Assembly: GCA_018303405.1 (NCBI GenBank)
Contig: JAGVYD010000007.1
Coordinates: 1-47,014, forward strand
Direction: 5' to 3'
Origin: Candidatus Woesearchaeota archaeon
GTDB lineage: Archaea; Nanobdellota; Nanobdellia; Woesearchaeales; JABMPP01
Length of the DNA stretch: 47,014 bases
The position numbers and the translations under genes are program-made. Within the stretch, counting starts at the first letter, position 1. Each line of letters opens with the position of its first letter. Of this stretch, positions 7,761-38,089 are shown in pieces. The notes beneath the pieces are model-generated. The model searched no databases and had not been told where the DNA came from. It saw only the letters and a program-made list of their open reading frames with translations.

Positions 7761-8864
7761 TTAGGCAGCATCTTTCTTTGCATCCTGCGCAACTGAGCCG
7801 ACCGCCTGCAAGGCTTCATACTTGGCCGCGTCCCTGATGGCAATAAGGATTTCCTTAATCCTGAGCTCCATCTCCTTCGCAAGGTCCCTTGGTATCTGGT
7901 GTTCTTCAGCCAGCTTTTCCTGGTCACGGTACATCTCATTCAGGATCCTAATCATGCCAAACATTATAAAACCAGACCTGAGCACCGCGCCCATGCCCTC
8001 CTTAAAAGCAGTTTCCACCATCTTGAAGATCTCATCTGATTTCTTATTCAATTTATCAATGAAATCAGTTATGTGCTGTGGCTCCAGGAATTTTGGCTTT
8101 TTCTTATCCATATACTGTTCATCAGCCAGTCTTCGCAGCTCGACTATGTCCTCCACAATCTTTCTCCTGAGGCGCACAACTTTTCCATAGTCCCTTATGA
8201 CATCCTTAACGCCCCACCTGATCATCAAATACTTCCCGAGGCTGGCAGATTCATCTTTTATCGTTGATATATACTTGCTCATCAAAGTTGCCGCATCCTC
8301 CCTTTCAACACTCTTAATCATATTCAATAAGTAACCATAATCCTTTTTCAGCAATTCCATGGTCTCGCCTATAAGCTCATCTCTATGGTGCCTCACTGAA
8401 TTCCTGGCCCTTTTGACAGCATTTATCATCTGCTGCAATTGCTCGCGCGATTCCTTCACTGTTATGCCTTTCAGCTTTTTTTCAAAATTATTCTGTATTT
8501 TTCGAAGGTAAACATCATAGCTTCCTGAATTTGGCAGCTTTCTCAAGAGGCTGTCCATATAAAGGAACAATCCCACTGTCAGAAAATAGTAATACTGCAC
8601 CGCAAAGTGGCCATTCTTGACCATGTAAGAATCATTGACTTCAATATTTGATAAATCATGCAAGTGCTCGAGCTTTTCATTTTTTTCAAATGCCTGGAAT
8701 ACTTTTTGTGCACTGTGCACAAATTTAGGGGTTTCAATGGAGCGCAAATGGAACAGGTTGATAAACCCCATAACCCCTTCAAGTTTGCTGGTTGCCAATT
8801 TTATCTTGAATGGGCCATAAGTGTGCAAAACAAAATGCCTATGCAACATATCAGTATCTGCCAT
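7761..8864 (-). CDS. Helical cytoplasmic protein, last gene of operon A
   Basis: A 367-residue, largely alpha-helical soluble protein that I cannot assign to a family. The first 110 residues are mixed, with an aromatic patch QYYYFLTVGLFLYMDSLL near 88-105 that could touch the membrane or pack in a core. The rest is charged helix with coiled-coil character (about 120-345) and an alanine/lysine-rich C-terminus. The ATG at 8864 is preceded by AAGGTGAGATA, a good Shine-Dalgarno. It starts 56 bases after the membrane-anchored coiled-coil gene and closes leftward operon A. It may be a cytoplasmic partner of the membrane proteins encoded upstream; that is inference from the operon. Confidence 0.75.
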   Translation of the reverse strand: MADTDMLHRHFVLHTYGPFKIKLATSKLEGVMGFINLFHLRSIETPKFVHSAQKVFQAFEKNEKLEHLHDLSNIEVNDSYMVKNGHFAVQYYYFLTVGLFLYMDSLLRKLPNSGSYDVYLRKIQNNFEKKLKGITVKESREQLQQMINAVKRARNSVRHHRDELIGETMELLKKDYGYLLNMIKSVEREDAATLMSKYISTIKDESASLGKYLMIRWGVKDVIRDYGKVVRLRRKIVEDIVELRRLADEQYMDKKKPKFLEPQHITDFIDKLNKKSDEIFKMVETAFKEGMGAVLRSGFIMFGMIRILNEMYRDQEKLAEEHQIPRDLAKEMELRIKEILIAIRDAAKYEALQAVGSVAQDAKKDAA

Positions 8865-8920
8865 TATCTCACCTTGTCCTTTGGTTGTTAACTTATTTTT
8901 CTTTATATATATTTTTTGAT

Positions 8921-10993
8921 TTAAGCTGCCTTTTTTGGAATTTCGGGCAGCTTTTCAGGCTTTTTCTGAATAATTACGGGAGCATTCGCATTCACTGCCC
9001 CTGGAAGCTTAGCCTGTGGCTGGTAGTCAGCAGCCATGGCGGATATTAACTGATTATAATCAACAGCCTTCGGAATCCTCTGCCTTATGTTTTCCAGGAC
9101 TTCATCCTCAAATTTAAGGTCATGGGTCACATAATCCTCAAGCTCTGCCATCTTGTCATTGTAAAATCCAATGAGCCTCTGAGCCTTGTTCTGATCGGCA
9201 AGGCTTCGCTTGATTTCTTCGTGCAGCCTCACGAAATATTTGCCTGCATAGCCCCTGAGGCCCTCATATCCGCCCGCCTTGCCCTTCTGGGTAAAGGCCA
9301 GCTTGAACTTGTCCCTGTTCAGGCGCTTGCCGTACTCCTTCAGTATGTTGTCAACTTCACCCAGCTTCGCCAGCCTGTCAAATTCTTTCTCAGTCATCAG
9401 GCCTTCACGGAAAACGTATTCCCGCTTGGCCAGGCTTACAGCATCAGGATGCCTCCTGATTTCAGCCTGTGCATGGTCTTTGAGCAGCCTCAGCCTCGCA
9501 TCCAGCTCTTTCTCAAGGTACATTGCATTTGCCCTAAAATCCTCATACATTTCATGGGCAGCCTTTCTGTCCAGCTGCCTTAAGATAAGCTGCTGCCCGT
9601 AAAAGCCAATTATATGGAAAGAATGCCTTTGCCCCTCATAATCATGGATTATGGTCTTTTTGGCTGCCTGAATCTTTTTGTTTATCACATTATACATGCC
9701 CTGCGTTTCTGCTGCAGTTGCCTTGTCTTTCAGGTTTCTTCCTTCAAGCTTGTGGTAAAACCCCCCAAAAACTGCGCTTGCTTCCCTGGATGTGAAGCTT
9801 TCCCGTTCCAGTTCTTCCCGAATCCTTTGCATTGGAGGCAGCAGGTCCTTCTCAGCCTTTACAACAACATCAAGATACTGCCTTATGTCCTTCACAATCA
9901 TCTCAAGGTTATGGAAATGAGGTATAAGCTCCTGCGCAATATGATTTGCAGCCTCATACCATCTGATTTCATTCTGCAAATCCTCATTGAGCTCCCTGTT
10001 GAATTTTTTCAGGTAGTTTTCGATATATGCATCATCAATAATTACCATATTTCCCGTGATTCTGCTTTTTGCATCATCGGCAAACCTGTCAAACCTATTT
10101 TTGCCATCTTCATTCCTCATTTCATGGGCCAGCAGGCTTTTCAGCTGCTTGTAGGCATTTTCCTGGAAGGACAATGCACGCTGCAAATACGGGACAATTT
10201 CACCGGCACTCATCTGGCCATCCCGCAAAATCCTTTCCAGGTGCGGCTTAAGCTGACTGAAATTTTCGATTATTTCCTTGGGATGCTTTATCTCCATCTG
10301 TTCCTTCAGGACATTTTCCTTCACTCTTTCAAGCGCTTTTTTAAGCGGTGTTTCCTGCGACTCTATGCTGTCAAGAGCCTTGAGAATTTCCACATTTATT
10401 GCCTTGATCGCAAGGGCAATTTTGCCTGACCCGTCCATCTTTTCCGCAGGATTCGCATTTTCTGCCTTGGAGATTAAGGGCGCCGATTCCTGCCCGAATT
10501 TCACAACCAATGCCTGCTTCTGCTTTATCAGGTCCGCCATCCTTATCAGGTGAGAATCTTTTTTCTCCTCAGCTTCTTTTGCCGTATCAACATTGTGGAT
10601 TGGGCTGGCAAGCATCCTTCTTTTTCCAAACCCGTAAGCACCTGCGCCCACCAAAGCCAGTCCTATAACAGCACCAATGCCCGCCATCTTTGTGGTGCCA
10701 GAGCCACTCTCTTTGCCCGCGCCTGTTTCTATCTCAGTAATTGCTGAGGCCACGCTCTCCTTAATTGCCACAATCCTTTGATCTGCATTGGCAGCATATT
10801 GTCCATTGTCAAGAATCTGGTGAAGGGTTCGCAAACCATTTGCATCATCATTGGTCCTCAGCTGATTTCTCAAGGACAAGGCAAGATAGGCATATTCCCC
10901 CTCATAATTGGCTGCGGCAGAATTTGCAATGGCAAGTATGATTACCATTAATGCCGCGAAATTCAAAATCCCCAAACTTTTCTTGCTCATCAT
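8921..10993 (-). CDS. Signal-peptide, single-pass membrane coiled-coil protein
   Basis: A 690-residue protein with an N-terminal hydrophobic signal (about residues 5-27, ending near ANSAAANYE), a short extracytoplasmic segment of about 75 residues, and one glycine-rich membrane helix near 105-124 (MAGIGAVIGLALVGAGAYGF). The positive patch GKRRM follows, so the remaining 565 residues should be cytoplasmic. That part is a long series of charged helices with coiled-coil character and a lysine/proline-rich end. No family is recognised. The start is ATG 10993 or the adjacent second ATG, behind GATGATGA. It follows the multi-pass protein gene by 31 bases within operon A. The topology suggests a membrane scaffold presenting a large cytoplasmic coiled coil. 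Confidence 0.8.
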   Translation of the reverse strand: MMSKKSLGILNFAALMVIILAIANSAAANYEGEYAYLALSLRNQLRTNDDANGLRTLHQILDNGQYAANADQRIVAIKESVASAITEIETGAGKESGSGTTKMAGIGAVIGLALVGAGAYGFGKRRMLASPIHNVDTAKEAEEKKDSHLIRMADLIKQKQALVVKFGQESAPLISKAENANPAEKMDGSGKIALAIKAINVEILKALDSIESQETPLKKALERVKENVLKEQMEIKHPKEIIENFSQLKPHLERILRDGQMSAGEIVPYLQRALSFQENAYKQLKSLLAHEMRNEDGKNRFDRFADDAKSRITGNMVIIDDAYIENYLKKFNRELNEDLQNEIRWYEAANHIAQELIPHFHNLEMIVKDIRQYLDVVVKAEKDLLPPMQRIREELERESFTSREASAVFGGFYHKLEGRNLKDKATAAETQGMYNVINKKIQAAKKTIIHDYEGQRHSFHIIGFYGQQLILRQLDRKAAHEMYEDFRANAMYLEKELDARLRLLKDHAQAEIRRHPDAVSLAKREYVFREGLMTEKEFDRLAKLGEVDNILKEYGKRLNRDKFKLAFTQKGKAGGYEGLRGYAGKYFVRLHEEIKRSLADQNKAQRLIGFYNDKMAELEDYVTHDLKFEDEVLENIRQRIPKAVDYNQLISAMAADYQPQAKLPGAVNANAPVIIQKKPEKLPEIPKKAA

Positions 10994-11024: not shown

Positions 11025-12464
11025 TCATTTGAAATTCCTATAGCCCTGCGCTGAGCAGCTTCCGCTCCTTAGGTCCAACAGAATCTCGAACTGGGTTTGC
11101 ATTGGAAGGCTCTTGATGTACCTCCTTTCATCACTGGTGTAGCATTCTTTCTCTCCAGGATTGAGGGTTGCCAAGCTGGTTTCTGCTCCCATGTCAGGCG
11201 AATCCACGCCAATTGCATCATTCCTTTTATCAGGCCAGTCAATCAGTATCTGGTCAAGCTCTGACATCCATGCTTCGCATTTGCCAACCATTTCATATTC
11301 CTTGCTCTGCGTCGGGCCAGGCTCCAGGTTGTTTGCATTTTCCCTGTATTTCAGCGTGCCGTCGCTCAATTTCTTAAGCAAAGTGTCAAAGGTGTCAGTT
11401 TTTCTAAGGACTATGAATTTGCATTCCTGTGCAGCGCCTTCGGCGATTTGCTTCAGCCTGGCATCGATTGTGGCTTCAGAATATACTGTTACAGGCGGCG
11501 TTTTTCCAAGGTCCTTCAGTTTTTTAACATATACAGCATAGGCATCAGAAAATTCCTTTTCGAGCACTTGGCACCTGGTCAGGAAATCCCTGTTTGCAGG
11601 AGCGTTCTCATAATCCGGTGTCCTCGAATTGCTTAGCCAGGCGCTAAGGTCAGAATTGACCTGCCTCAATTTCTTGAGGGCGTCAGCATAACTGTCATCA
11701 TTGATGATGGGCGCCCTGCATTCAATCCTTGCCCTGTCCTTGTAAATACCCAATTCCTTTTCCAGCTCAATTATGTCTTTTTCCAGCTGGGCTTTTTGGT
11801 CGGCAGTCAGGCCATCGCCCTTAACTGCCTTGCCTCCTGTCGCTTCGCTTATTTTCTCGGCGACTTTGCTGCTTACAATAGTCGGGCCGCCAAAGTCCGG
11901 AACCTTGAAAGTTTCTTTTCCAAAACTCGGCAGACTCAGTTTTTTTCCTGTGAAAAAGATGCTGCCAACATTGAAAAGTATTACAGCCACTATCACTGCC
12001 AAGATCAACGAGAGGAATTTGCTTTTTATGCCCATCCTTTGGAAGAGGAAATACAATGCTATTATGACGAGGAAGAACAACAAATTCTTGGCAAATGGTA
12101 TGAAAAAGGAAACACTCAGGCCAGCCCTTATGACTGCAATAGCCATTGCTGCGCCAACTATTATTGCCAAAGCCCGAACGGCTCTGCCAGCTCCTCCTTG
12201 TTTGATATCTTCACCCCAAAATTTTGATAGCCCAATATAGACTATTGCAACAAATATTCCAGTAAATATCAGAAAATCAAAAAACTGCGCATATTTGTCA
12301 TAAATTGGAAGCCCTGTGGAACTCGTTGCATCTGTCCCTTCAACTCTGATGCCAACCAAGTTCCCGAGATCCTCCAATTGTGCGAGGACAGGAGTCAAAG
12401 CCAGGGCAAGCGCAGCTACAAGGACGAGCCACTTCGCGTTTTTAGCCAATCTGTTTTTTATCAT
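11025..12464 (-). CDS. Multi-pass membrane protein with signal peptide and soluble tail
   Basis: A 479-residue protein. Residues 1-29 form a signal-like helix ending PVLAQ. Four further hydrophobic helices follow at about 62-82, 95-118, 128-146 and 152-171, and then a hydrophilic region to the end, with coiled-coil stretches (about 215-245) and six or more cysteines. The N-terminal sequence LAKNAKWLVLVAALALA closely resembles that of the 1089-residue protein in operon B (ARNAKWAMLLVIAAIALV), linking the two operons. The ATG overlaps the stop of the upstream regulator gene by four bases and is preceded by GGAGGG. Function is unknown; pore or channel-like proteins of secretion or conjugation systems can share this layout, but no homology is claimed. 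Confidence 0.8.
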   Translation of the reverse strand: MIKNRLAKNAKWLVLVAALALALTPVLAQLEDLGNLVGIRVEGTDATSSTGLPIYDKYAQFFDFLIFTGIFVAIVYIGLSKFWGEDIKQGGAGRAVRALAIIVGAAMAIAVIRAGLSVSFFIPFAKNLLFFLVIIALYFLFQRMGIKSKFLSLILAVIVAVILFNVGSIFFTGKKLSLPSFGKETFKVPDFGGPTIVSSKVAEKISEATGGKAVKGDGLTADQKAQLEKDIIELEKELGIYKDRARIECRAPIINDDSYADALKKLRQVNSDLSAWLSNSRTPDYENAPANRDFLTRCQVLEKEFSDAYAVYVKKLKDLGKTPPVTVYSEATIDARLKQIAEGAAQECKFIVLRKTDTFDTLLKKLSDGTLKYRENANNLEPGPTQSKEYEMVGKCEAWMSELDQILIDWPDKRNDAIGVDSPDMGAETSLATLNPGEKECYTSDERRYIKSLPMQTQFEILLDLRSGSCSAQGYRNFK

Positions 12465-12982
12465 CTTGCCCTCCTTTGCAAGGCTTTAATCAAGAACTCT
12501 GACCCAAACAGGATTGTCCCGGACTGTATCATGCCTGAAATGTGATTGTCCCTGGACAAAATCCCAGAAACAAATTCATCATCGGACATCACTCCTAATT
12601 TATCCTCCTTGAATATTTTGGCAGCCGCAGCTTTTGCCTGTTCAAGACTGTGATGACCTGTCACTACCAAAATTCCATTCTGATGCTTTAGAACAAGCCT
12701 TGTGAGTTCGGACAGTTCTTTTACATCTTTTTCATCGGTTGATGCAACAAAACATGCCAGATGAAACGCAGATGTCTTCCGAAGATTGATATCATAGAAA
12801 AGTCCAGTGCCAAGCTTTTCTGCAACAACAATCCCCCCTTTTTCCATTTTTTTGAGGGACTTGTAAGAGCCGGCCGGGCTAATCTTCAGTTTTAATCCAA
12901 TCTCCCTTGTGGTAAATCTAGAGGCATAATTCTTTATGAGAAATGCAATAATTTTCTGGTCATTGTCGCTTATGGCAATCAT
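12461..12982 (-). CDS. Winged-helix regulator with degenerate nucleotidyltransferase-like tail
   Basis: A 173-residue protein, first in operon A. Residues 1-65 are a winged helix-turn-helix (FTTREIGLKLKISPAGSYKS, wing near GTGLFYDINL). The rest resembles the C-terminal part of archaeal proteins that fuse such a domain to a minimal nucleotidyltransferase, ending in the family-like SGTILFGSEFLIKAL. The catalytic GS and paired aspartate motifs are not visible, so the second domain is probably inactive and serves dimerisation or sensing. The gene sits behind a promoter with two inverted repeats (13011-13036) and overlaps the next gene by four bases. It is a good candidate for the repressor that binds the palindromes shared across the 13-23 kb block; this is inference. 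Confidence 0.75.
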   Translation of the reverse strand: MIAISDNDQKIIAFLIKNYASRFTTREIGLKLKISPAGSYKSLKKMEKGGIVVAEKLGTGLFYDINLRKTSAFHLACFVASTDEKDVKELSELTRLVLKHQNGILVVTGHHSLEQAKAAAAKIFKEDKLGVMSDDEFVSGILSRDNHISGMIQSGTILFGSEFLIKALQRRAR

Positions 12983-13772: not shown

Positions 13773-16001
13773 TTAATCTTTATCGCTCACAGGAAGCTCT
13801 TCCCATTGCGATTCAACAAGGTCTGCTTCAGACTCGGGAGCATTAGCCGTAGCAACATCGACCCGCAATGGATTCATTGGGAATTTACCACCATATGGCC
13901 TGGGCCCATAGTCATAACCATGTATCTCCTGGCCAATCAAATCAAAATATTGATTCATTCTCTTTGAATAATGTGTTCTGGACAAGACTGTGTCAATCAT
14001 GTATATAGCCAGGCCTCTGGTGCTTATGTGCGGGTCATCATCCGGGTCAAGAATATCAGAATTTATCCCATCCGTTGTCCAATGATAGAATATCCGGCCA
14101 GGATGCTTCCAACTTTTGTATCTCGCATCATTTGTGACATGGCTGTGTTCCAATGCCCTTAAATCAAAGCAAGGATTCAGATTAGATGGCCTTCTTTCAT
14201 CAATCCATGGTCGGTCATACTGCCCTGAACTGCCAAGATATGAGTATTGCCCATCAGCTTTATTCAATAAGTACATTGTGAACGACCTTGCCTCGCGCAC
14301 ATTCTCTAAGGAAACTTGCACAGTTGTATCAATTCTATTTAGCCCTCTGTGAGGCCTTGCTGCACCTTCATGCTCTCCATGTTCTCCCTCAATATGCTCT
14401 TCGGCCTCATCATGTTCCTCAGTTAGTGTATGGCCTTTAATCCTCGGGGTTATCTTATGCACTCTTTTGTGCATCCTGGCCAGCACATAATCATAAGCAT
14501 TCATGCTATAAGGGTGGTATCTTCCATCCCTAAGATCATCCCTGAATGCATCGAATTCTCCATCTATCCACATTGCCACGTCAAGCAGTTTTTGGTACAT
14601 ATGCGTGTGCTCATCATAAAATTTCCTGTGGGGATCATTGATGTACCTCTCTTGGTCCGGAATACTGTATTTCTCTATCAATTCTCTTCTCTTCTCGGCC
14701 ATATCCGCCTCAGAAACGCCATGGAGCCGCCATCTTTTTTCTGAATTCTCAAGCAATTGCCTTTTGTATTTATCGGCAAGAACAACAACCCTGTGTTGTA
14801 CATCATCATATTCCACTTCAAGGGGCATATTATACTCATCCCTGCCCCAGCTCATTTCATGAGGCAATTTGACAAAATTGCCACCATGTGCCCTCACAGC
14901 TTCCCTAATAATATCCTCTGTCTTCCGGTTTCGTCCTGTGCTCCACCTGCCAAGCCTTCTCTCTTCCCGGGTAGGCAGAGGCGCATTTGGCTGATTTGGA
15001 TTATAAGTATCCCCTCTTAGATCCTCATCATAATCCGGGCTGTAGATTACACGGTAAGTTCTCCTGCACACAATGTGCTGCTTGGTGTGCACTTTGTCCA
15101 AAAATGTTGTCATGCTCTCAGCCAGATTATCAACTTCATTTTGCCAATAGAAGCTGAATGCCCAATCTGATTGTTTCCTGAGATCCTGCTCATATTTGCC
15201 AATTTCAATCTGGAAGACTTCATTTACCATGTCAGTATATGCCTTTTCCAACGCGTCCAGATTGGTCTTAATTTCTCTATCATAAGTTTCCTTGCCAAAC
15301 TCCCGAATTAAGCCATTCTTATTGGCCGCGTATAGTTCCCTGCACGCATTAATGACCTGTGATACAAGTTTTTTATGGATGTCCTTGAATTCATCTGCAT
15401 ACCTATAACCATATATCCTAAGATATTTTTCAATTCCATCATAATAGAGAATTTTATGCTCTTTTGGAATTCTGAACGGGAAGAACCTCGTCTCCTTCCT
15501 ATCACCGGGCAGCTCAAAGTCAAATTTGACCCATACAGGTTCCATTGCTTCAATCGGAGGCTGCGTTCTGTCCAGCTTCTTCCTGCCAACAATATTGCCT
15601 TCATTATCAAATATTTCAGTAAGCTTGTCGAAGTCTATCTGGTATTTTATGATAGCCCTCTCATAATGAGTGTTGATTCTATCAGTGAAAGGCCCCACAA
15701 TAGTGGTTGATTTATGCTCAACGTCATTCTTTAACTTGTTCCAGTCCTCACCCCAGATTTCTTTTTCTATTTTTTTCAAAAGGTCCATCCTGGCAGAGCC
15801 AACATCAAACAATCCCATAAATTTCAGTTCCCTGATTAGCGGCCCCAGTGAAGGCTCAACATCTTCTGTAGTGTCTTTTGCATTGCGGACAAACCGGAAT
15901 TTTACATTGTTCCAGAGCCTAATTGGCATTTCCTGAAAAAGAGACCTGAAAATGCCTGCCAAGTCCTTGTGAGATTCCCCTCCTCCTCCAGGTTCTGCCA
16001 T
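13773..16001 (-). CDS. Large soluble protein, paralogue of the tail of the 1089-residue membrane protein
   Basis: A 742-residue hydrophilic protein with no membrane segments, last in operon B. Its C-terminal half is collinear with the cytoplasmic tail of the 1089-residue protein encoded two genes upstream. Shared blocks include DEYxMP (about residue 388 here, 909 there), LD...W....LR.G.Y (about 473), and N-ARY...GR.FY.T...I.S....P.IST.G (about 624-662). An insertion rich in histidine and glutamate (about 525-550, EEHDEAEEHIEGEHGEHEG) is unique to this protein and might bind metal. The ATG at 16001 (MAEPGGGG) is preferred over a GTG at 16010 because GAGAAGTGA precedes it. It may compete with or complement the membrane protein's tail in the same complex. 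Confidence 0.8.
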   Translation of the reverse strand: MAEPGGGGESHKDLAGIFRSLFQEMPIRLWNNVKFRFVRNAKDTTEDVEPSLGPLIRELKFMGLFDVGSARMDLLKKIEKEIWGEDWNKLKNDVEHKSTTIVGPFTDRINTHYERAIIKYQIDFDKLTEIFDNEGNIVGRKKLDRTQPPIEAMEPVWVKFDFELPGDRKETRFFPFRIPKEHKILYYDGIEKYLRIYGYRYADEFKDIHKKLVSQVINACRELYAANKNGLIREFGKETYDREIKTNLDALEKAYTDMVNEVFQIEIGKYEQDLRKQSDWAFSFYWQNEVDNLAESMTTFLDKVHTKQHIVCRRTYRVIYSPDYDEDLRGDTYNPNQPNAPLPTREERRLGRWSTGRNRKTEDIIREAVRAHGGNFVKLPHEMSWGRDEYNMPLEVEYDDVQHRVVVLADKYKRQLLENSEKRWRLHGVSEADMAEKRRELIEKYSIPDQERYINDPHRKFYDEHTHMYQKLLDVAMWIDGEFDAFRDDLRDGRYHPYSMNAYDYVLARMHKRVHKITPRIKGHTLTEEHDEAEEHIEGEHGEHEGAARPHRGLNRIDTTVQVSLENVREARSFTMYLLNKADGQYSYLGSSGQYDRPWIDERRPSNLNPCFDLRALEHSHVTNDARYKSWKHPGRIFYHWTTDGINSDILDPDDDPHISTRGLAIYMIDTVLSRTHYSKRMNQYFDLIGQEIHGYDYGPRPYGGKFPMNPLRVDVATANAPESEADLVESQWEELPVSDKD

Positions 16002-16060
16002 TTTATTCACTTCTCATTTGTTTTTTCGGTTCTTTCTATCATTTTCTTACTAACACCTAT

Positions 16061-18223
16061 TTATTTTTGTTGGATTACTTTGGATCCTTCAATTTGTGGG
16101 GAGGGACCAATAGGGGGTTTCTTTGCAATTTCATTTGCCTTTGCAACGGATTCCGGGATTATCTTTTCCATGGTTCCCGGTGTATTGATGCCTCCCTGTT
16201 GCCAGGCATTTCCAGCCTGTTCATTCACCTTGGCACTTTTTTCCATCTCCACCAACAGCTCTGTAAGCTTTTCTACGTCAAAATGCTCCTGTACCAATTT
16301 CCTGACATTTTCACCAACACTTGCGAAATGCACCTCAATTTTCTGAAGCAGGGCCACCAAATCCTCAATCATGGCAAACTTGTTTTGCAAATTCCTGTAC
16401 ATTTTGCCAAACTGGCCCCCTATGTCATCTGCGATCAATTTTATGTTTCGATATGCTTCAATCTGAACCCTCGCCACAATCGCTGCATCATGGTATTCAT
16501 TCTGGGAAGTTGTTGCACCCATAAGCTGTCCAGCATATGCCTGCCATTTTCCGGCAAGTGAAAAATCACTTGATATTCTCTGGAGGCTTGGCACCCAATC
16601 ACCTTTAGGCATTGCATCAAATTTTTTCCGGAATTCCCCCATGCCAAACCATCCATCAATCAGCATGAGCTCCAATTTTTTTGCGATGGGCTTCCAAGTC
16701 GCTATAAATTTTTTCTCCCTAGCATCAACTCTTTCAAGGAAGCTTTCAACCTGCCTTTTGCTGGAAGAAAGCCTCTCTTCAACAAGGGCCCGCATTGTGA
16801 CTATCCCTTCAACCATGTCCTTTTCCAAAATATTGATCCTGGACTGCAGGATCTCCTCAATTGACTTTTCAACATTATTTGAAATCAGCATAAGCTGCTT
16901 TTTCCTGCTCAAGAACAAATTTCTCAATCCCTGCACCCCCTGTGAAAAAGCCTCCAGCACCTTTTCCTTGTTGTTCACTTCTGCAGCAATCACCGACTCA
17001 ATCTCTTTCATCCAGGCCTGGATATCATCCCTGTGCCTTTGCCGGATTTCAACAATCTTATCAGCGACTTTTTGGTCTGCAAATTGTTTTATAATATATT
17101 GCGATTCAGCTTTGGCATTTCTGGCAACAGCCAGGAAATCCTTCCAGTCATTTTGCTGGTAGCCCTTGGCAATCAGGGCCTGCAGCCCCATCTTTGTTTT
17201 GCCATCTCTCCTGTCCACATAGGTGCCTGGTCCCAAATATCTGTATTTGTCAACATAAAACAGCAATTTCCTTATTGTCTGATCCTTTTTCAAGTCTTCT
17301 GCCAGCACATTATCCTTGAACTGCTGCAGCAGGCCTGAAAGAAGAGCCTTTACCCTATTGACATAATTAAACAATAATTGCACATACTGGCTTGTTGTCC
17401 CGGTCTCAGAGCTGAATTCTGCGAGCCATTTTTCCAATTGCAGGATAAATTCGTCAAGCAAAACAATTTCTTTTTCCACATTATCATATTTTCTCTGCAT
17501 GTCCAGGACTGTTTTCAGTTTCCTGACAAGAATCGCATCATTTATCCTGTATTTTGCCTGGAGCTCCTGCTCAAGGTGCTGCACATAGACAAACAGATTT
17601 TCCCGGATATGCGGGGCATTCTGGTTGCCGGGCTTAAGATCCGCCTTATTCATTTCCCGCAATTCCTTCAACTGCTCCCTGAGATAGGCATTTTCTATAC
17701 TGCTGATGACCTGAACCAATCTTGCAATGCGATTTGCCAGGGCAACATCAGGAACTCTTCTGATGCTCTCCATCAAAGGGCTGTTTCCGCTTTCCACTTC
17801 GTGCGAAAGCTCGTTCCTGAAATAGCCTGAAATTGTTTCCTCAGACTTTACCCTGAGCATGCTGTGCAATTTCAGCAGCAGAATAGCTTCATTTTGCTCT
17901 ATACTCTTCAATTGTCTTATCTCATTTTCAAGAGGCCGGTCGTATCTGCCTATTTCCGGTGCCATGGCTTTCAGGTAGCTGATGAATTCCTGCGGGCTTG
18001 AATTGTAGTTTCTTTTCGCTTCCAGAACCATTCCTAGGCCAATTGTGGCCTTATGTGCCCTTATTGCCAGAGCAGGGTCTGTCAGTATGACTGGCAAATC
18101 ATCGTTGGTTATCTGTTGCAAGAGGGTTTTCAAATGCTCTTCCAACTCCCTTCTCCTGTCTTCATACATCTTTGTCAATTCAGGCCATCCCATTCTGGCT
18201 CCCTTTTCTTTTGTTTCGGCCAT
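16061..18223 (-). CDS. Large coiled-coil protein of operon B
   Basis: A 720-residue, nearly all-helical cytoplasmic protein without signal or membrane segments. Charged helices and coiled-coil stretches run through most of it, with a short glycine/aromatic break near residue 340 (YRYLGPGTYVDRRDGKT) and a proline-rich tail from about 670. No family is recognised. The frame extends to a GTG at 18232, but the ATG at 18223 (MAETKEKG) lies just behind the stop of the membrane protein gene, implying translational coupling. It resembles the cytoplasmic part of the 690-residue protein of operon A in style but not detectably in sequence. A scaffold or filament-like role beside the ATPase and membrane protein is inference. 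Confidence 0.8.
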   Translation of the reverse strand: MAETKEKGARMGWPELTKMYEDRRRELEEHLKTLLQQITNDDLPVILTDPALAIRAHKATIGLGMVLEAKRNYNSSPQEFISYLKAMAPEIGRYDRPLENEIRQLKSIEQNEAILLLKLHSMLRVKSEETISGYFRNELSHEVESGNSPLMESIRRVPDVALANRIARLVQVISSIENAYLREQLKELREMNKADLKPGNQNAPHIRENLFVYVQHLEQELQAKYRINDAILVRKLKTVLDMQRKYDNVEKEIVLLDEFILQLEKWLAEFSSETGTTSQYVQLLFNYVNRVKALLSGLLQQFKDNVLAEDLKKDQTIRKLLFYVDKYRYLGPGTYVDRRDGKTKMGLQALIAKGYQQNDWKDFLAVARNAKAESQYIIKQFADQKVADKIVEIRQRHRDDIQAWMKEIESVIAAEVNNKEKVLEAFSQGVQGLRNLFLSRKKQLMLISNNVEKSIEEILQSRINILEKDMVEGIVTMRALVEERLSSSKRQVESFLERVDAREKKFIATWKPIAKKLELMLIDGWFGMGEFRKKFDAMPKGDWVPSLQRISSDFSLAGKWQAYAGQLMGATTSQNEYHDAAIVARVQIEAYRNIKLIADDIGGQFGKMYRNLQNKFAMIEDLVALLQKIEVHFASVGENVRKLVQEHFDVEKLTELLVEMEKSAKVNEQAGNAWQQGGINTPGTMEKIIPESVAKANEIAKKPPIGPSPQIEGSKVIQQK

Positions 18224-18228
18224 ATTAA

Positions 18229-21200
18229 TCACTTAGGTGCCTCCTGTTTTGCCGGATTCAGCGACTCGTCGCTGTAATAAATGCCTGGCTCTGGCCCACC
18301 GGAATCCTTTACAAACCATGACAAATATTCATTAACTATGTGCTCATCCTGTATGGTGTTCTCAAAGTAAAACTTAAGGAACTTGGATATTCCCAATGTG
18401 CTGATTCCAGGATAAGGTGTGGTGTATTCATAACTGCGAATTGCTTCGTTGCTTGTTTCGTAAAATCTTTTTCGGCCAAGGAACTGTACATGGTAACGTG
18501 CAGGATTCTTGAAATATTCCAAGTCAACAGCCGGATGGGAAATATCAGGGAACTCAACTCTGCCATTACTTATGGCCTTCCTGACGTTTCTAAAGGCCCT
18601 TCCTTCAGCATCTCCATGCAGGAAAGCATGCTCATAGTCTGAGAATGTTCTGCTCGCGCCTCTGTAAGTGCCATATCTAAGCTCTTCAATCCATCCAATC
18701 CACTCAATGTCAAGGTACTTCAGTGGATTTGTGAACTTCTCAAACCATGAAATTGTCGGCATCCTATATTCGTCACCTTCAAACACTGGCTTGACTCCCC
18801 TGATATAAGGCTGGCCATGATTTCGCCTGAGCCATTCCTTTGCATCTGCCACAGTCCTGTACTTGCCAGTCAAAGCTCCCATGTTAATTTCATTCAAATC
18901 ATCAAGGAAGTAGCCGTCCCAGCTAACTTCATCCCTATCCTTGACACTTTTCAATTCTTCCACTTCTTCTGCAGCCTCTTCTTCAACTTGCTCAAGGGCT
19001 TCCCCTCTCTCGTCAGCCCTGAATGTCTCCATATTATTTTCTGATGTCCTTCTTCTTATATCTTGCATGAGATTCTCGCGCAGATCTGCCTCTTCTCTCC
19101 ACTTTATACCATCAACGGGCACAGGATGCACCTTGACTGTGTTAAGCCCTGGGCGATGCGCTTCTCTTCCTTCATCGTCACCTGTCACTTTTTCAAATGT
19201 GAAGTCAAAATAATAAACAGGCGCGCTGTTGCGGGCCATTAAGTATGTGTGCGTGTACATGCCACAGTATGCATACTGATCGGCAACCAGCTTTCTTCGT
19301 GCATTAACCCGTATCAGCAGTCCGTATTTTCTCATGGCTTCAATATATTCCTTGTATTTGCCCGTGATATTCGGGACAATAGACTGCCTGAAATCACGCA
19401 AGACCCTCTCCTTGATGTTGGTGGCTCTCGCAGTGACTTCTGTAGCTTCAGAGCCAGTCCTTAACTGGGAAAGAGTCAGCTCGGACTGCAGCCTTTGGAG
19501 CAGTGAGAATGTATACCTGAATGTCTGAGTCGCCCCTTTTATGTTGGAGGTATTACCATAATTCAGGTATTTTGAATCGCCATCCACTTCATCATAATAA
19601 AAATTCTTGTATTTCATGAATTTGACATTGAACATCCTAAACCTTCTCCTGAAATCATCTGCGTCGATGTTTGTCGGGCTCAAAGGCTGGGTTTCATCAA
19701 TCTTCTTAACCGGGAACACTTCGCATCTTGGTCCTGATTCGAATAGCACAATCTGAGTCCTGAACCTGTTCTGGGACGTATCTTTGCCAAGCCTTGCACT
19801 GTTTGGCCTTGGGACCCCTTCCTGGCCGTATATCTTCCTCATCAGCTCATAATTCTGAATTACTGCGCCGTGCTTGCCCTTGAAAACCTGCAGCCTGAGG
19901 AGATAATTCATGAGAGTGAACAGCTTTTCCCTGTTATGCAGGAATTCCAATGGGAAAGTGTTTCCTGGCTCATAACCGCCGGTTAATCCGAATTTTGTCA
20001 AGGCACGACCCGTTGGATCATTAATCCCCCTTAACCCTCTTCCAACATGGCGCCAGGCCCACCTCTTCAAATCTTCCATTATTCGGCGCCAGCCCTTGTT
20101 TTCCTTATGTGCCTTATCGCCTGATTTCGTTGCCATGCCTGCACCAATCGCCACGATGAAAAGCAACCCGCCAAACACCCAGGCAGAGAACGGCGCTATT
20201 GCATCTGCTGTAGAATCCTGGGCGCCACTCTTGAACCACCACCATCCCGCGGCTCCCAATAAAAGCACAATCCCCACCCTGATGGCCATCTTAGTCCTGT
20301 CATTCTGAATCCCATCTGTCTTGCTGTAGCCAATATATCCAGCCACACCCAGCGCCAAAAGAATAACAGAGCCTGTCAAAATCTGGCCATTGAACAATCC
20401 TGCAATTATGTCAAATGGAATTGCAGTGAATGCATACTCTTCAAAGGCAAGGTCAGCAAGCCATTCAGTGAGAAGGGACGCGAACAAAATATTGATCCAT
20501 GCCCACTTATCCTTGAAGGTGTCCTGCGCTTTCATTCCCTTGTAAATTACAAGACCAAACAGCACTTCACCAAAGAACACAGCGCTCTTGACAGTAATCC
20601 CATTATTGGCTATTGCTGATCCGGCAAGTATAGCAATGGTCCACTGTATTAATTTGAAATCAGTCCCAATTTTCCATGATGTCAGGAAGAAATATACAAG
20701 CAGGCTCAAGCCTATGAAAATGAAAATCTGCCTGCCCCGCAGTATTCCAAAGCCCTCGAAATTGGTGCTTTCGGTTGTCAGGTCAGGGGAGTACGATGTT
20801 GATACCCCTCTTTGTGCATTTTCCAGTGTTTCTACGGTATAGCAATACCTGCCTGATGTCAGGCTGTCTCCCTCCCTGTTCTGGACAACGCAATTGGCGT
20901 CCCCGAGGAGATAATACCTGATCTCTATGAGGCTATCCTGTTCCCATATGTACTTGTAAGTCTTTTCATCATATGGCTTGCCTCCGGTAAATGGCCCAAG
21001 TGCAATCGTTGATGCAATAAGCAGGGCAACAGCAAAGATTCCAAAGTTGCCCCATTTTCCAGTCATCTTTTGCTTAACCTGCGGGATGAACTGGGCAACC
21101 ACCATAATGAATCCGGTAATCAAGCCAAGATTGACAAGAACCTTCAGATGCAGGATGTTGCTTACCCATCCCATCTTCCAGATGTAATTGGCCTTCAAAT

Positions 21201-21498
21201 CCGGGTTCATGAATGCAAGCAGGACAGCGAATGCAACAACCCCTAGCTGCAGCATATTCCTGTACCTGTCTTCTTTAACCTCCATCAATGCAGCCCCGGC
21301 CAATAGAAGCGCAGCTATTATCGCAGCGTTGATTCCGGCATACTTGTATTTTGCAACAGCTCCCTGGATTCCGGTTGTCGCAGAATTGAGGGCATCCCCT
21401 ATCTGCGCAGATGCAAGCCCAATTGATACAAGCGCTATTGCAGCAATAACAAGAAGCATTGCCCACTTCGCATTCCTGGCAGATTCAGTGCTGCTCAT
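18229..21498 (-). CDS. Giant multi-pass membrane protein with soluble C-terminal domain
   Basis: At 1089 residues this is the largest protein in the block. It begins with a signal-like helix (ARNAKWAMLLVIAAIALV) and has about ten further hydrophobic helices up to about residue 460. An extracytoplasmic loop near 170-250 has two cysteines (DANC and GRYC) that could form a disulphide. Residues from about 470 to the end are hydrophilic and cytoplasmic; the last 230 (from about 860) are shared with the 742-residue protein at 13773. It overlaps the ATPase gene by 14 bases and starts behind GGAGGTGC. No family is recognised. It looks like the membrane platform or channel of a multi-component machine energised or regulated by the ATPase. 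Confidence 0.82.
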   Translation of the reverse strand: MSSTESARNAKWAMLLVIAAIALVSIGLASAQIGDALNSATTGIQGAVAKYKYAGINAAIIAALLLAGAALMEVKEDRYRNMLQLGVVAFAVLLAFMNPDLKANYIWKMGWVSNILHLKVLVNLGLITGFIMVVAQFIPQVKQKMTGKWGNFGIFAVALLIASTIALGPFTGGKPYDEKTYKYIWEQDSLIEIRYYLLGDANCVVQNREGDSLTSGRYCYTVETLENAQRGVSTSYSPDLTTESTNFEGFGILRGRQIFIFIGLSLLVYFFLTSWKIGTDFKLIQWTIAILAGSAIANNGITVKSAVFFGEVLFGLVIYKGMKAQDTFKDKWAWINILFASLLTEWLADLAFEEYAFTAIPFDIIAGLFNGQILTGSVILLALGVAGYIGYSKTDGIQNDRTKMAIRVGIVLLLGAAGWWWFKSGAQDSTADAIAPFSAWVFGGLLFIVAIGAGMATKSGDKAHKENKGWRRIMEDLKRWAWRHVGRGLRGINDPTGRALTKFGLTGGYEPGNTFPLEFLHNREKLFTLMNYLLRLQVFKGKHGAVIQNYELMRKIYGQEGVPRPNSARLGKDTSQNRFRTQIVLFESGPRCEVFPVKKIDETQPLSPTNIDADDFRRRFRMFNVKFMKYKNFYYDEVDGDSKYLNYGNTSNIKGATQTFRYTFSLLQRLQSELTLSQLRTGSEATEVTARATNIKERVLRDFRQSIVPNITGKYKEYIEAMRKYGLLIRVNARRKLVADQYAYCGMYTHTYLMARNSAPVYYFDFTFEKVTGDDEGREAHRPGLNTVKVHPVPVDGIKWREEADLRENLMQDIRRRTSENNMETFRADERGEALEQVEEEAAEEVEELKSVKDRDEVSWDGYFLDDLNEINMGALTGKYRTVADAKEWLRRNHGQPYIRGVKPVFEGDEYRMPTISWFEKFTNPLKYLDIEWIGWIEELRYGTYRGASRTFSDYEHAFLHGDAEGRAFRNVRKAISNGRVEFPDISHPAVDLEYFKNPARYHVQFLGRKRFYETSNEAIRSYEYTTPYPGISTLGISKFLKFYFENTIQDEHIVNEYLSWFVKDSGGPEPGIYYSDESLNPAKQEAPK

Positions 21499-22657
21499 TT
21501 AGCACCTCCTCTGCTTTTTTCAGGATTTCATCAGAAGGAATTTCATTGAATTCATAGCCGGAATAGGCAAGCTTAATCCATTTTTTCAAAATCGGCTCTG
21601 AAAAAGCATATTTGTTGTCCCTCTTCACCAAAATGTCAGCCTGCATCATCCTTTCCAAAAGGCTTTTTGTTACAGGGGCGCTCCTGTAGATACGCCTTGA
21701 AATTTCTGTCAGCCTTGGCTCCCTAAGGAAAGCAAGAATCTTGACAACAGTCTTTGGCATTGCCTCTCCGCGGGCGCGATAAAGATAATCATTCAGCATT
21801 GACTCAAGGTGCAAAAAAACCGAGGAATTTTTCAGAGTCATCTCAATCAAAAAGGACTTTTTGACATCATGCGTCTCGGAATACCTATTTGCAATGGCAT
21901 GAACCAGGAAAGGAATGCCTTCAGAAATCGCATGAATCTCATCAGCAACTTTATTGTCTGCTTTGCCAATAATCTTCCCAACCAATTCCTGGGTTTCGGC
22001 CTGGCTCAGACCATATACCCGCTCCTGTGCAAAATTCCTAAGGGATTTTTCCAGCAGCACCCTGCCAGAACTGGCCACAAGGTATGAAACATTCCTGCTG
22101 CTGAGCGGAATCAGGGACAAAACATCCCTGACCTGGCTGAAATTATTGAGATCAAAAATGTTCTCAAAGTCATCCAGAAGCATGACAACTTTCTTCCCTG
22201 ATTTTTTTGAAATTTCGTCAGCAAACCCAAAAGCCCTTTGCAGCATTGCCTTTTGGTCCGGTTTTATTTTTTGCAGCTCGTTACTCAAGAAGTCGACTGT
22301 ATCAGCAGCATTTTTTCCGAGCCTGTCCTTAATGGAAAGAAGATGGGAAATATCCTGGAATTTTACGTAGTCCTGAGAAATGGCGCCCAGGAACCAGAAG
22401 CTGATACCGCCAATAAGTTCGACAGAAAAGTTTTCAGGGGGTGTGCTTGTTCTGTTTAGGCCAATATAGACCGGCAATAGATCGTGATGCTTGTCCAGCT
22501 TATCCTTGATCTCCCATAAAAGGGTTGTCTTGCCCGCGTACTTCGGCCCAACTATGGCGGTGTTTTTTCCTTGTCTTGCATATTCACTCAGTTTGTCTGA
22601 GTAGAACCTTCTGCCGACATGGTGCTTCTGGTTTCTTGGGTTAGCCAAAAAAAACAT
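21485..22657 (-). CDS. Archaeal AAA+ ATPase with winged-helix tail
   Basis: A 390-residue P-loop ATPase of the archaeal ATPase/STAND-like class related to Orc-type AAA+ proteins. Walker A is GPKYAGKTT (residues 37-45), Walker B VVMLLDDFE (157-165), and sensor-1-like SYLVASSGR follows near 190. The lid domain (about 215-290) is followed by a winged-helix region (about 300-370, ending KYAFSEPILKKWIKL). It is first in operon B, behind a promoter with palindromes TAGTATACTA and CCAATTGG, and overlaps the next gene by 14 bases. Members of this class often accompany mobile elements or act in signalling, and the substrate is unknown. It is not a VirB4-, FtsK- or GspE-type motor as far as I can see. 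Confidence 0.88.
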   Translation of the reverse strand: MFFLANPRNQKHHVGRRFYSDKLSEYARQGKNTAIVGPKYAGKTTLLWEIKDKLDKHHDLLPVYIGLNRTSTPPENFSVELIGGISFWFLGAISQDYVKFQDISHLLSIKDRLGKNAADTVDFLSNELQKIKPDQKAMLQRAFGFADEISKKSGKKVVMLLDDFENIFDLNNFSQVRDVLSLIPLSSRNVSYLVASSGRVLLEKSLRNFAQERVYGLSQAETQELVGKIIGKADNKVADEIHAISEGIPFLVHAIANRYSETHDVKKSFLIEMTLKNSSVFLHLESMLNDYLYRARGEAMPKTVVKILAFLREPRLTEISRRIYRSAPVTKSLLERMMQADILVKRDNKYAFSEPILKKWIKLAYSGYEFNEIPSDEILKKAEEVLNEQH

Positions 22658-34116: not shown

Positions 34117-34692
34117 CTAATTGTTCATATTTCCTTTCAATTTCCTTATCCTGCGCGCAGCCAGGAATATCAGGAAAATTACAGCAATGAGCAATACCCA
34201 AACAGCATATCTGGCCACCTTCTGGCCATTTTCCTTTGCCGGAACATCATAAGAATAGATTTGCAGGCCCTCCTCATTAAGTATGACAACCTTTTCTTCA
34301 TCCGGATATGTCGGCAATGTCAAGGCAAAGTCATTTTCAGTGAGGATGGTCAATCCTCCGCTTATCTCGTCCTCATTATATTCGTGCAAGTAAATTTTCG
34401 CAGGTGAAATGAATTTTATGCCAAACAATTCATTGTCATTTTGGCCAAGGATTTTAAGGGAATAGCCCTGTTTTGGCTGAATCCTGTAATCAGGATAGTA
34501 GCCAAGCCTTGTTGTTTGGGAGGACAGGACTAATGAAGCTCCGGCATCAGATGCACTTTGGTAGTGGAATGTCATGATTCTTACTGTTTCCGGCCTTGCC
34601 TGGACCGGCGAAGCTGCTATGATTATGGCAATTGCCACGATAAAAAGGCAAGCCGCATTCTTCACATTTTTTGCACGGGAAAAAGGCTTCAT
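34117..34692 (-). CDS. Signal-peptide protein with C-terminal membrane anchor
   Basis: A 191-residue protein with a signal peptide (about residues 11-32, ending SPVQA-RP), an outer beta-rich domain of about 115 residues, and a membrane helix near 155-175 (YAVWVLLIAVIFLIFLAA) followed by a basic tail. It is thus a type I surface protein. Its ATG overlaps the stop of the upstream metallopeptidase gene (ATGA), so the two are translationally coupled and likely act together at the cell surface. No family is recognised. Confidence 0.78.
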   Translation of the reverse strand: MKPFSRAKNVKNAACLFIVAIAIIIAASPVQARPETVRIMTFHYQSASDAGASLVLSSQTTRLGYYPDYRIQPKQGYSLKILGQNDNELFGIKFISPAKIYLHEYNEDEISGGLTILTENDFALTLPTYPDEEKVVILNEEGLQIYSYDVPAKENGQKVARYAVWVLLIAVIFLIFLAARRIRKLKGNMNN

Positions 34693-35837
34693 TGATACCC
34701 CTCCAGTGCCCTTGCCATTGCATCTTCATTAATTGGGCCGTAGCTTGTATCAGACAAATCCCTCATAACCGAAGTGAGCGTGCCGCGGTAGTAATTTCCA
34801 AGCGTGCATCCTTTTTCACAAACCGGATTTATGCTCCATTTATTGCATCCGCTATAATCACAATTCGGGTAATCAGCCGGGTCATAGCCAGGATACTGGC
34901 TGTAATATGCCTCATCCTCATATTCCTCAGCCAGGTTGCCAATGGCATGGCCCAATTCATGCAAAATCACAGAACTCCTGTCACGCGTCGTGACCTTGAC
35001 AAGGTTCATGATGCTGCTCGACCTGGCAGTCCCCAAAAAGCCTTCGTTGTAAATCACAAGAACAAAATCATTGGGGCAATGCGAGGCAAGGCTGTTGACA
35101 ACTGATTCATCACACTTGATAATCCTGTTTTGGGCATTGCAGCTCAATGCCTCAATATCCTCAACCCTGAAATAATTCATCTTGTCATTATATCCTCCAA
35201 AAAATTCATGCCCCCTCAGCTCACTTATGTAGCTGTCTGAATCAGCGATAAAGTCATCAATATTCCCGTAGTTTGCAGGAATGACAACTATATCCAATTT
35301 TTTTTCCGGATCTCCGCTGTAATGCACATTTGTGCAGTCATCGCCGCTTCTCCTGTTCTCCGAAGTTATATCCTTGAAATCACCTTTATTTTCCAGCTTA
35401 AGCTCAACCTTCCTATTTTCCACTCTGATGCAAAAGGGATTAGACTCCTTTTGCAGCCTTAAGTCAGGAACCTCATAAGCATGGTATTCGCCTTCATAGC
35501 TGATGAAAACATTGGCATTCGAGAAGATATCCACAACTGCAGAAAGCCTGTTGTTCAGAAATTCATCGTATTGCCTCTTCCTATCGACAAAGCAAATTTC
35601 GTCAGCGCTGTTTGGCATTGAAAAGCTGATGGCCTCGACATTACCGATATCAGATGAGTCTGTTTTCAGCATTTTTGCAAGCCGGTCCCTGAAAACCAGG
35701 AGATCTGCCTCATTGCTGTCCTTGCCGATTTTGACCAGGTAAAAAGTGCCCAGTGCCCCTATTGCCAGAATCACTATTGCCACGCTGACATAAATCAGCG
35801 GAGTCAAGGCTTCCTGTCCTCTTTTATCCATAAACAT
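34689..35837 (-). CDS. M64-like zinc metallopeptidase with pilin-like N-terminus
   Basis: A 382-residue predicted surface zinc peptidase. The motif HELGHAIGNLAEEY (His293 to about 306) closely resembles that of M64 (IgA-peptidase-like) enzymes, with Glu294 as catalytic residue and a downstream acidic ligand. Before it, LDIVVIPANYGNIDDF is also typical of the family. The N-terminus KRGQEALTPLIYVSVAIVIL resembles archaeal class III (pilin-type) signals, with the basic-G-Q junction followed by a long hydrophobic helix. A TATA element at 35859-35868 is about 26 bases before ATG 35837, indicating a leaderless mRNA. It is coupled to the downstream anchored protein gene. The substrate is unknown. 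Confidence 0.85.
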   Translation of the reverse strand: MFMDKRGQEALTPLIYVSVAIVILAIGALGTFYLVKIGKDSNEADLLVFRDRLAKMLKTDSSDIGNVEAISFSMPNSADEICFVDRKRQYDEFLNNRLSAVVDIFSNANVFISYEGEYHAYEVPDLRLQKESNPFCIRVENRKVELKLENKGDFKDITSENRRSGDDCTNVHYSGDPEKKLDIVVIPANYGNIDDFIADSDSYISELRGHEFFGGYNDKMNYFRVEDIEALSCNAQNRIIKCDESVVNSLASHCPNDFVLVIYNEGFLGTARSSSIMNLVKVTTRDRSSVILHELGHAIGNLAEEYEDEAYYSQYPGYDPADYPNCDYSGCNKWSINPVCEKGCTLGNYYRGTLTSVMRDLSDTSYGPINEDAMARALEGYQ

Positions 35838-37675: not shown

Positions 37676-38089
37676 TTACTTATCACCGGCATTTTCAACT
37701 GCAGAAATCATCCGTTCCAATTCCCTGGCAATTCCCCTGCATTTCTGGTCCAGCTGGTCCAGCTGGTCATTTGTAATATACCCAATATCCCTGCTCATCG
37801 TGCCTAATGCAATTATGCCGTTGGCTGATGCATTGGCATATGTCATGAAAAAAAGGAACTCCCTGCCCTCGCGAACCGCAAGAGCCTTTGAAATGTTGCT
37901 GACAACAGACAATGCCAATTTTCTGAGGAGGGGAATCATCACGTGCGCTTCATATTTTGGAAACTGCACCGTGAGCGTGTAAACTTCAACCGCCATGGAG
38001 TTGGCTTTTTCGGAAAGGCCGTTTTCCGGGATTTCATAAACTTCTTTGCTTTTCATCCACCAATCAAATTTCATTGCCTTATTATGCAT
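37676..38089 (-). CDS. Four-helix-bundle protein (S23/23S-IVP-like)
   Basis: A 137-residue all-helical protein that fits the four-helix-bundle family named after proteins encoded in bacterial 23S rRNA insertions. The pattern is VYTLTVQFPKYEAHVMIPLL, then SVVSNISKALAVREGREFLF, then a long final helix. The FPxxE and NI...R motifs are the usual family marks, though this copy is diverged. The family is common in Patescibacteria and DPANN genomes outside rRNA genes; its role is unknown, possibly RNA-binding. The ATG at 38089 is used; a second ATG five codons in is possible. Confidence 0.7.
   Translation of the reverse strand: MHNKAMKFDWWMKSKEVYEIPENGLSEKANSMAVEVYTLTVQFPKYEAHVMIPLLRKLALSVVSNISKALAVREGREFLFFMTYANASANGIIALGTMSRDIGYITNDQLDQLDQKCRGIARELERMISAVENAGDK

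Follow-up and report, generated by a model that had tools for sequence, protein, structure and literature searches.

The locus studied here encodes a soluble protein and, two genes upstream, a giant membrane protein with a large C-terminal tail, and a preliminary description had claimed that the soluble protein duplicates part of that tail. This raises the question of whether the two are indeed copies of one another and, if so, what relationship a free copy would have to a tethered one. By "the window" we mean the whole stretch of DNA that was analysed, 47,014 nucleotides of a Woesearchaeota contig. The names attached to relatives are likewise those of Woesearchaeota, which places the window in this group.

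Organization of the gene cluster

Four genes form a run on the minus strand (13773-22657) in the order ATPase, membrane protein, coiled-coil protein, soluble protein. Neighbouring genes overlap or are separated by no more than about 60 bases, so that, as far as can be judged from the sequence, they are arranged as in an operon (Table 1). The ATPase gene is the first of the four, overlaps the membrane gene and encodes the best-conserved member of the cluster. The order of ATPase, membrane protein, tail (where this is a separate gene), coiled-coil protein and soluble protein recurs across the Woesearchaeota order. The coordinates, strand and lengths originally given for the genes of the soluble protein (742 amino acids) and the membrane protein (1089 amino acids) were right.

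Hydropathy analysis predicts that the membrane protein has a signal-peptide-like start and about 11 helices (residues ~54-456), followed by a basic stretch and the large tail. Because the stretch at the start of the tail is strongly basic, we take the tail to be cytoplasmic. We also considered whether the coiled-coil protein might be a third paralogue, and rejected this candidate, as profile comparison with all four regions gave E values of at least 0.06.

Table 1. Positions in the window of the cluster genes, their notable regions and the accessory and possible accessory genes
Feature	Position	Strand	Basis and remarks
P6: signal-peptide-like start, short outer part, one helix, long helical inner part	8921..10993	-	sequence, hydropathy
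P5: signal-peptide-like start, 4 further membrane helices, long C-terminal region	11025..12464	-	hydropathy; recurrent
Winged-helix protein, 173 aa	12461..12982	-	HTH_24 E 3.3e-4; homologues in other loci
Soluble paralogue P1, 742 aa	13773..16001	-	ORF; family of 18; no membrane helix by hydropathy
Shared C-terminal domain of soluble protein, residues ~395-700	13902..14819	-	profile-profile match
Charged motif D484 to S499, soluble copy (R662 lies elsewhere)	14505..14552	-	residue conservation table
All-helical coiled-coil-like protein, 720 aa	16061..18223	-	family of ~22; lies between membrane protein/tail and soluble paralogue
Giant membrane protein P2, 1089 aa	18229..21498	-	ORF, hydropathy; conserved across Woesearchaeota
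Shared C-terminal domain of membrane protein, residues ~855-1069, degenerate copy	18292..18936	-	profile-profile E 1.9e-27
Upstream part of cytoplasmic tail, residues ~520-854	18937..19941	-	hhalign E 1.8e-4; secondary structure
AAA ATPase of the ATPase_2 kind, winged-helix-like C-terminal region	21485..22657	-	Pfam ATPase_2 E 1.7e-5

Homology of the soluble protein and the tail

A direct BLASTP comparison of the soluble and the membrane protein is at chance level (best E value 0.36), and the match between them therefore rests on profiles. Family profiles built from 18 soluble and 20 membrane-type sequences align over 175 columns with a probability of 99.8% and an E value of 1.9e-27, far above the control, the family of the operon's coiled-coil protein, which gave E values of at least 0.06. 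Smaller, independent profiles of 3 and 4 sequences also match (98.1%, E 1.2e-13), and a profile restricted to four membrane proteins retrieves the soluble protein in its own genome (E 4e-6). In addition, when each of the two proteins was used to search 59 genomes of the order, an intermediate emerged, a membrane protein of genome G002, in which one and the same stretch is matched by the soluble protein (E 4.6e-7) and by the membrane protein (E 6.4e-16). At the level of sequence profiles, we therefore regard the homology of the two C-terminal regions as secure. The preliminary description was thus right about this relationship, and the boundaries (soluble protein, residues ~395-700; membrane protein, residues ~855-1069) lie nearly where it had placed them.

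Three blocks of residues had been put forward as common to the two proteins. The second and third (LR.G.Y and ARY...GR.FY...P.IST.G) are true homologous blocks. However, the likeness of the first, DEYxMP, is coincidental: the soluble protein has a conserved DENGxPLEV (residues 388-396) that precedes V396/V858, while the DEYRMP of the membrane protein (residues 909-914) is found about 50 residues downstream, within an insert that varies.

The shared blocks had been described for the C-terminal halves, and the similarity is apparently wider than this. A second match, detected by hhalign, relates residues 67-126 of the soluble protein to residues ~525-600 of the membrane protein (E 1.8e-4 over 57 columns), where the best of 40 column shuffles reached an E value of 0.84. 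At a lower threshold, collinearity holds over the full length of the alignment, which includes an HTY motif common to the soluble protein and the tail. Secondary structures are likewise collinear in two models that were predicted from separate alignments. Both models contain a helix of 35 residues (soluble 64-98, tail 523-557) and one of 13 residues (soluble 108-120, tail 576-588), followed by strands, long helices and then the shared domain, whose elements are a strand pair, two helices, a 20-residue helix (472-492 / 923-942), a shorter helix and a final two helices. These are single-chain models of moderate confidence (mean pLDDT 63.5 and 64.6), and their collinearity supports, rather than proves, homology in the upstream region. 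We consider it probable that the N-terminal half of the soluble protein is homologous to the upstream part of the tail, so that the 742-residue protein is apparently a copy of most of the cytoplasmic tail.

Distribution and age of the pair

Phylogenetic analysis of the shared domain separates the soluble copies and the tails into two clean clades (support 100/99), and the duplication is therefore old, having preceded the split of the sampled lineages. The domain occurs in 21 of 288 genomes of the order, and 18 of these 21 have exactly two copies. As to the remaining three, G002 and G063 have a single copy, on a contig that breaks off within the cluster. In G113 there appear to be two clusters (contigs C44 and C91), and the soluble gene of one of them is broken across frames. 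A survey of 371 genomes from the phylum found the domain only in the Woesearchaeota order, apart from one marginal match. The membrane part is also present in all 21 domain-bearing genomes. The nearly constant pairing is in keeping with subunits of one complex. Together with the synteny, it shows, as far as gene content can, that the two proteins are functionally linked, which is not the same as proof of contact.

Nineteen further genomes match the membrane part without the shared domain, some of them marginally. In five genomes where the ATPase and membrane genes lie on unbroken contigs, neither a soluble paralogue nor, genome-wide, a tail domain was detected. In G075, a 181-residue, minimal and eroded-looking tail gene (L072:8516-9061; hhalign E 2.7e-4) is situated between the membrane and coiled-coil genes, and no soluble paralogue is detectable. 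The pairing is therefore not strictly all-or-none. Two other loci have peculiarities of their own. In G145, whose assembly is 64% complete, a stop codon splits the membrane gene into two open stretches (L055:2194-5071). A contig labelled as belonging to the bacterium Omnitrophica (L092, MHFY01000038.1) carries the cluster ATPase and the membrane gene at 5862-7756; it is more likely to be mis-binned than to reflect gene transfer.

Repeated fusion and separation of the tail

It is correct that the same domain occurs twice in one operon, with one copy on the membrane protein; a constant difference between a tethered and a soluble copy, as originally described, does not exist. Roughly every second locus encodes the tail as a separate soluble protein, in a gene that directly follows a short membrane gene (e.g., in G060, G169, G271, G274, G196, G248, G227 and four GenBank loci), and in the others it is fused. 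Mapped onto the ATPase tree, fusion or splitting of the tail and the membrane part requires about six changes, a count that involves several weakly supported nodes. Recurrent gene fusion and fission is a classic sign of parts that bind each other. Since so many loci encode the tail separately, it need not be permanently tethered, and the repeated changes weaken any model that is built on a permanent tether.

These observations bear on the possibility that the soluble protein acts as a regulator or decoy, which would compete with the tail for a common partner (the coiled-coil protein or the ATPase), would thereby turn the membrane protein on or off and would not be a permanent subunit. The same domain is found both free and on a membrane protein, the soluble gene is the last of the operon, so that its dose could vary, and several clusters that lack the pair are presumably functional. 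However, the tail itself is free in about half of the loci, so that regulation cannot hinge on the distinction between free and tethered. Moreover, the pair is kept one-to-one, and the soluble copy is the better conserved of the two and has invariant residues of its own, beyond what a competitor would need. We therefore think a regulator or decoy unlikely.

Unequal conservation of the two copies

Some core positions are kept in both copies (D613/D992, G635/G1008, P657/P1030 and G663/G1036). In contrast, six charged residues, D484, R487, D488, D492, R494 and R662, are 94-100% conserved among the soluble copies, while no residue exceeds 35% in the corresponding columns of the tails; the tail encoded in the window has I, I, E, Y, T and L at these positions. 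Soluble copies alone also have the motif DENGxPLE before and the motif DYGPR after the shared domain. This asymmetry fits a soluble copy that would be active or bind a ligand and a tail copy that would have a structural, docking role, and it argues against subunits that are interchangeable and simply alternate.

A symmetric ring or lattice of the kind raised in the preliminary description, in which tethered and free subunits are equivalent and alternate, could account for two paralogous subunits at one each per locus, and for the AAA ATPase and helical rods that are encoded in the same operon. The strongly unequal conservation of the copies and their differing ends, with DENGxPLE and DYGPR in the soluble copies only, lead us to view such a ring or lattice as quite improbable.

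The same residues could be read in another way, namely that the shared domain is an enzyme whose soluble copy is active, the charged motif forming the active site, while the tail is catalytically dead and recruits substrate or enzyme to the membrane. The near-invariant cluster of D, R, D, D and R, together with R662, is indeed found in the soluble copies only. However, searches of Pfam, NCBIfam and PHROGs placed the domain in no enzyme family, it matched none of the solved folds, and charged residues can also bind nucleic acid or a partner protein. We think that there is only a slight chance that this explanation is the right one, although an enzyme paired with a dead enzyme could also be a detail of an assembly with two non-equivalent subunits.

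Accessory genes and surroundings

Two further genes are associated with the cluster in other genomes and appear to be accessory. A P5-type gene recurs within about 10 kb of the core cluster, and a winged-helix gene recurs near or just upstream of the P5-type gene, in a second operon. In the window, P6 comes next after P5. The C-terminal region of P5 is probably external. P6 is a possible accessory protein of the cluster, and no homologue of it was found by sequence; similarly, no relatives of P7 and P8 were detected. We do not claim that P2 and P5 have a membrane part in common, as the similarity beyond the signal peptide reaches only an E value of 1.2e-3.

The flanking genes are ordinary ones (PAC2, TctA, LonB and TsaD). 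Elsewhere in the window, a 140-residue protein (2638-3060) weakly matches the profile of the winged-helix protein (12461-12982). A Peptidase M64 match (34689-35837, E 1.4e-8) adjoins a 191-residue protein without a family, and positions 37676-38089 encode a protein of the 23S_rRNA_IVP type (E 5e-15), a helical family that is named after rRNA intervening sequences.

A proposed membrane assembly

Our preferred interpretation, to which we assign about an even chance, is that the tail and the soluble protein arose from one old gene duplication and are now unequal subunits of a single assembly that is bound to the membrane and linked to an ATPase. The 11-helix protein would act as an anchor or channel. 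The tail, covalently attached in about half of the loci and a separate subunit in the others, would bind its soluble paralogue on the cytoplasmic side of the membrane to form a pseudo-symmetric hetero-oligomer. The coiled-coil protein would link them, and the AAA ATPase would power or switch the assembly. Activity or ligand binding would reside in the soluble copy, the sole keeper of the charged motif, and the tail copy would contribute structure and docking. In this proposal, the contact between the paralogues, their stoichiometry, the role of the ATPase and the identity of the active copy are the elements that we infer. Candidate outputs of the assembly are transport, secretion, cell contact and surface assembly.

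A stronger form of this proposal would be that the cluster encodes an ATPase-driven membrane machine that is specific to Woesearchaeota and made of families not seen elsewhere, with an inner module that is an obligate pair of an active soluble subunit and a degenerate docking subunit, the latter repeatedly joined to and separated from its membrane anchor in the course of evolution. We put this forward tentatively, as a possibility that we would not yet favour.

Woesearchaeota, which are tiny uncultured archaea, belong to the DPANN, whose cultivated members are cell-contact symbionts (PMC11291902). How DPANN achieve contact and exchange is an open question, and a membrane assembly that is encoded by several conserved genes and has no known relatives is a natural candidate for cell-surface biology peculiar to the lineage; we do not claim a link to symbiosis. 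The tethered and free paralogues offer a concrete handle on this problem, consisting of two proteins and a short list of residues.

Comparison with known systems

Scans of eight cluster proteins against Pfam, NCBIfam, PHROGs and PADLOC gave no match above the cut-offs, and a Pfam scan of all 38 members of both families revealed no recurrent family. A sequence search of the PDB had no significant match. Foldseek comparison of the predicted models with the PDB and BFVD produced none at E <= 0.001, which is weak evidence, because the models are of moderate confidence and only these two collections were compared. A P2-based scan of genome contigs had no match, and viral contigs scanned with the ATPase alignment contained no copy of the ATPase family. 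With no viral copy of the ATPase and no fitting PHROG family, there is no sign of a virus. The PADLOC search for anti-phage defence gave chance-level matches only, and literature searches did not find a description of the gene cluster. By the tests that we ran, the ATPase and the winged-helix protein are the only core or accessory proteins that can be placed in a known family. Our claim of novelty concerns protein families and does not extend to a new mechanism.

One lead was provided by HNH_repeat (PF18780). A protein with three such repeats in G402, another genome of the class (L116:8871-9548), has LRKGRYHPEIKTYNDYL ... AFD, which is near the DLRDGRYHPxSxTxxDYxxA ... PAFD of the soluble family. 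Its neighbours (7554-8874) are a row of tandem HNH_repeat proteins with LRKGRYHPEIKTYNDYL, upstream of an SNF2-type helicase/methyltransferase gene. The best domain in this lead scores 22 bits, and about 0.1 chance matches are expected over 371 genomes. We set this kinship aside, as 0 of 18 soluble and 0 of 20 membrane-type members match PF18780 at E <= 0.1.

Polytopic proteins of the VirB6/TrbL kind are part of type IV secretion and conjugation systems, which the cluster resembles in a general way in its signal-peptide-like start, many helices, ATPase and rod-like partners. It differs from them in that the membrane proteins match neither VirB6/TrbL nor any other type IV secretion component in Pfam, NCBIfam, PHROGs or PDB sequences. 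No ATPase of the VirB4/VirD4 type was found among the window genes scanned.

The closest known relatives are those of the ATPase. Its family has an invariant GKT (Walker A) and, in nearly all rows of the alignment, a Walker-B-like hydrophobic stretch that ends in D-[DN]-FE. ATPase_2 (PF01637), a family of archaeal AAA/STAND-like ATPases, covers the ATPase alone and not the paralogous pair, and the score of 25.2 bits is under the Pfam cut-off of 33.2. Nevertheless, the two are alike in their Walker motifs and winged-helix-like C-terminal region, and the match (E 1.7e-5) suggests that the operon ATPase is a distant kin of ATPase_2.
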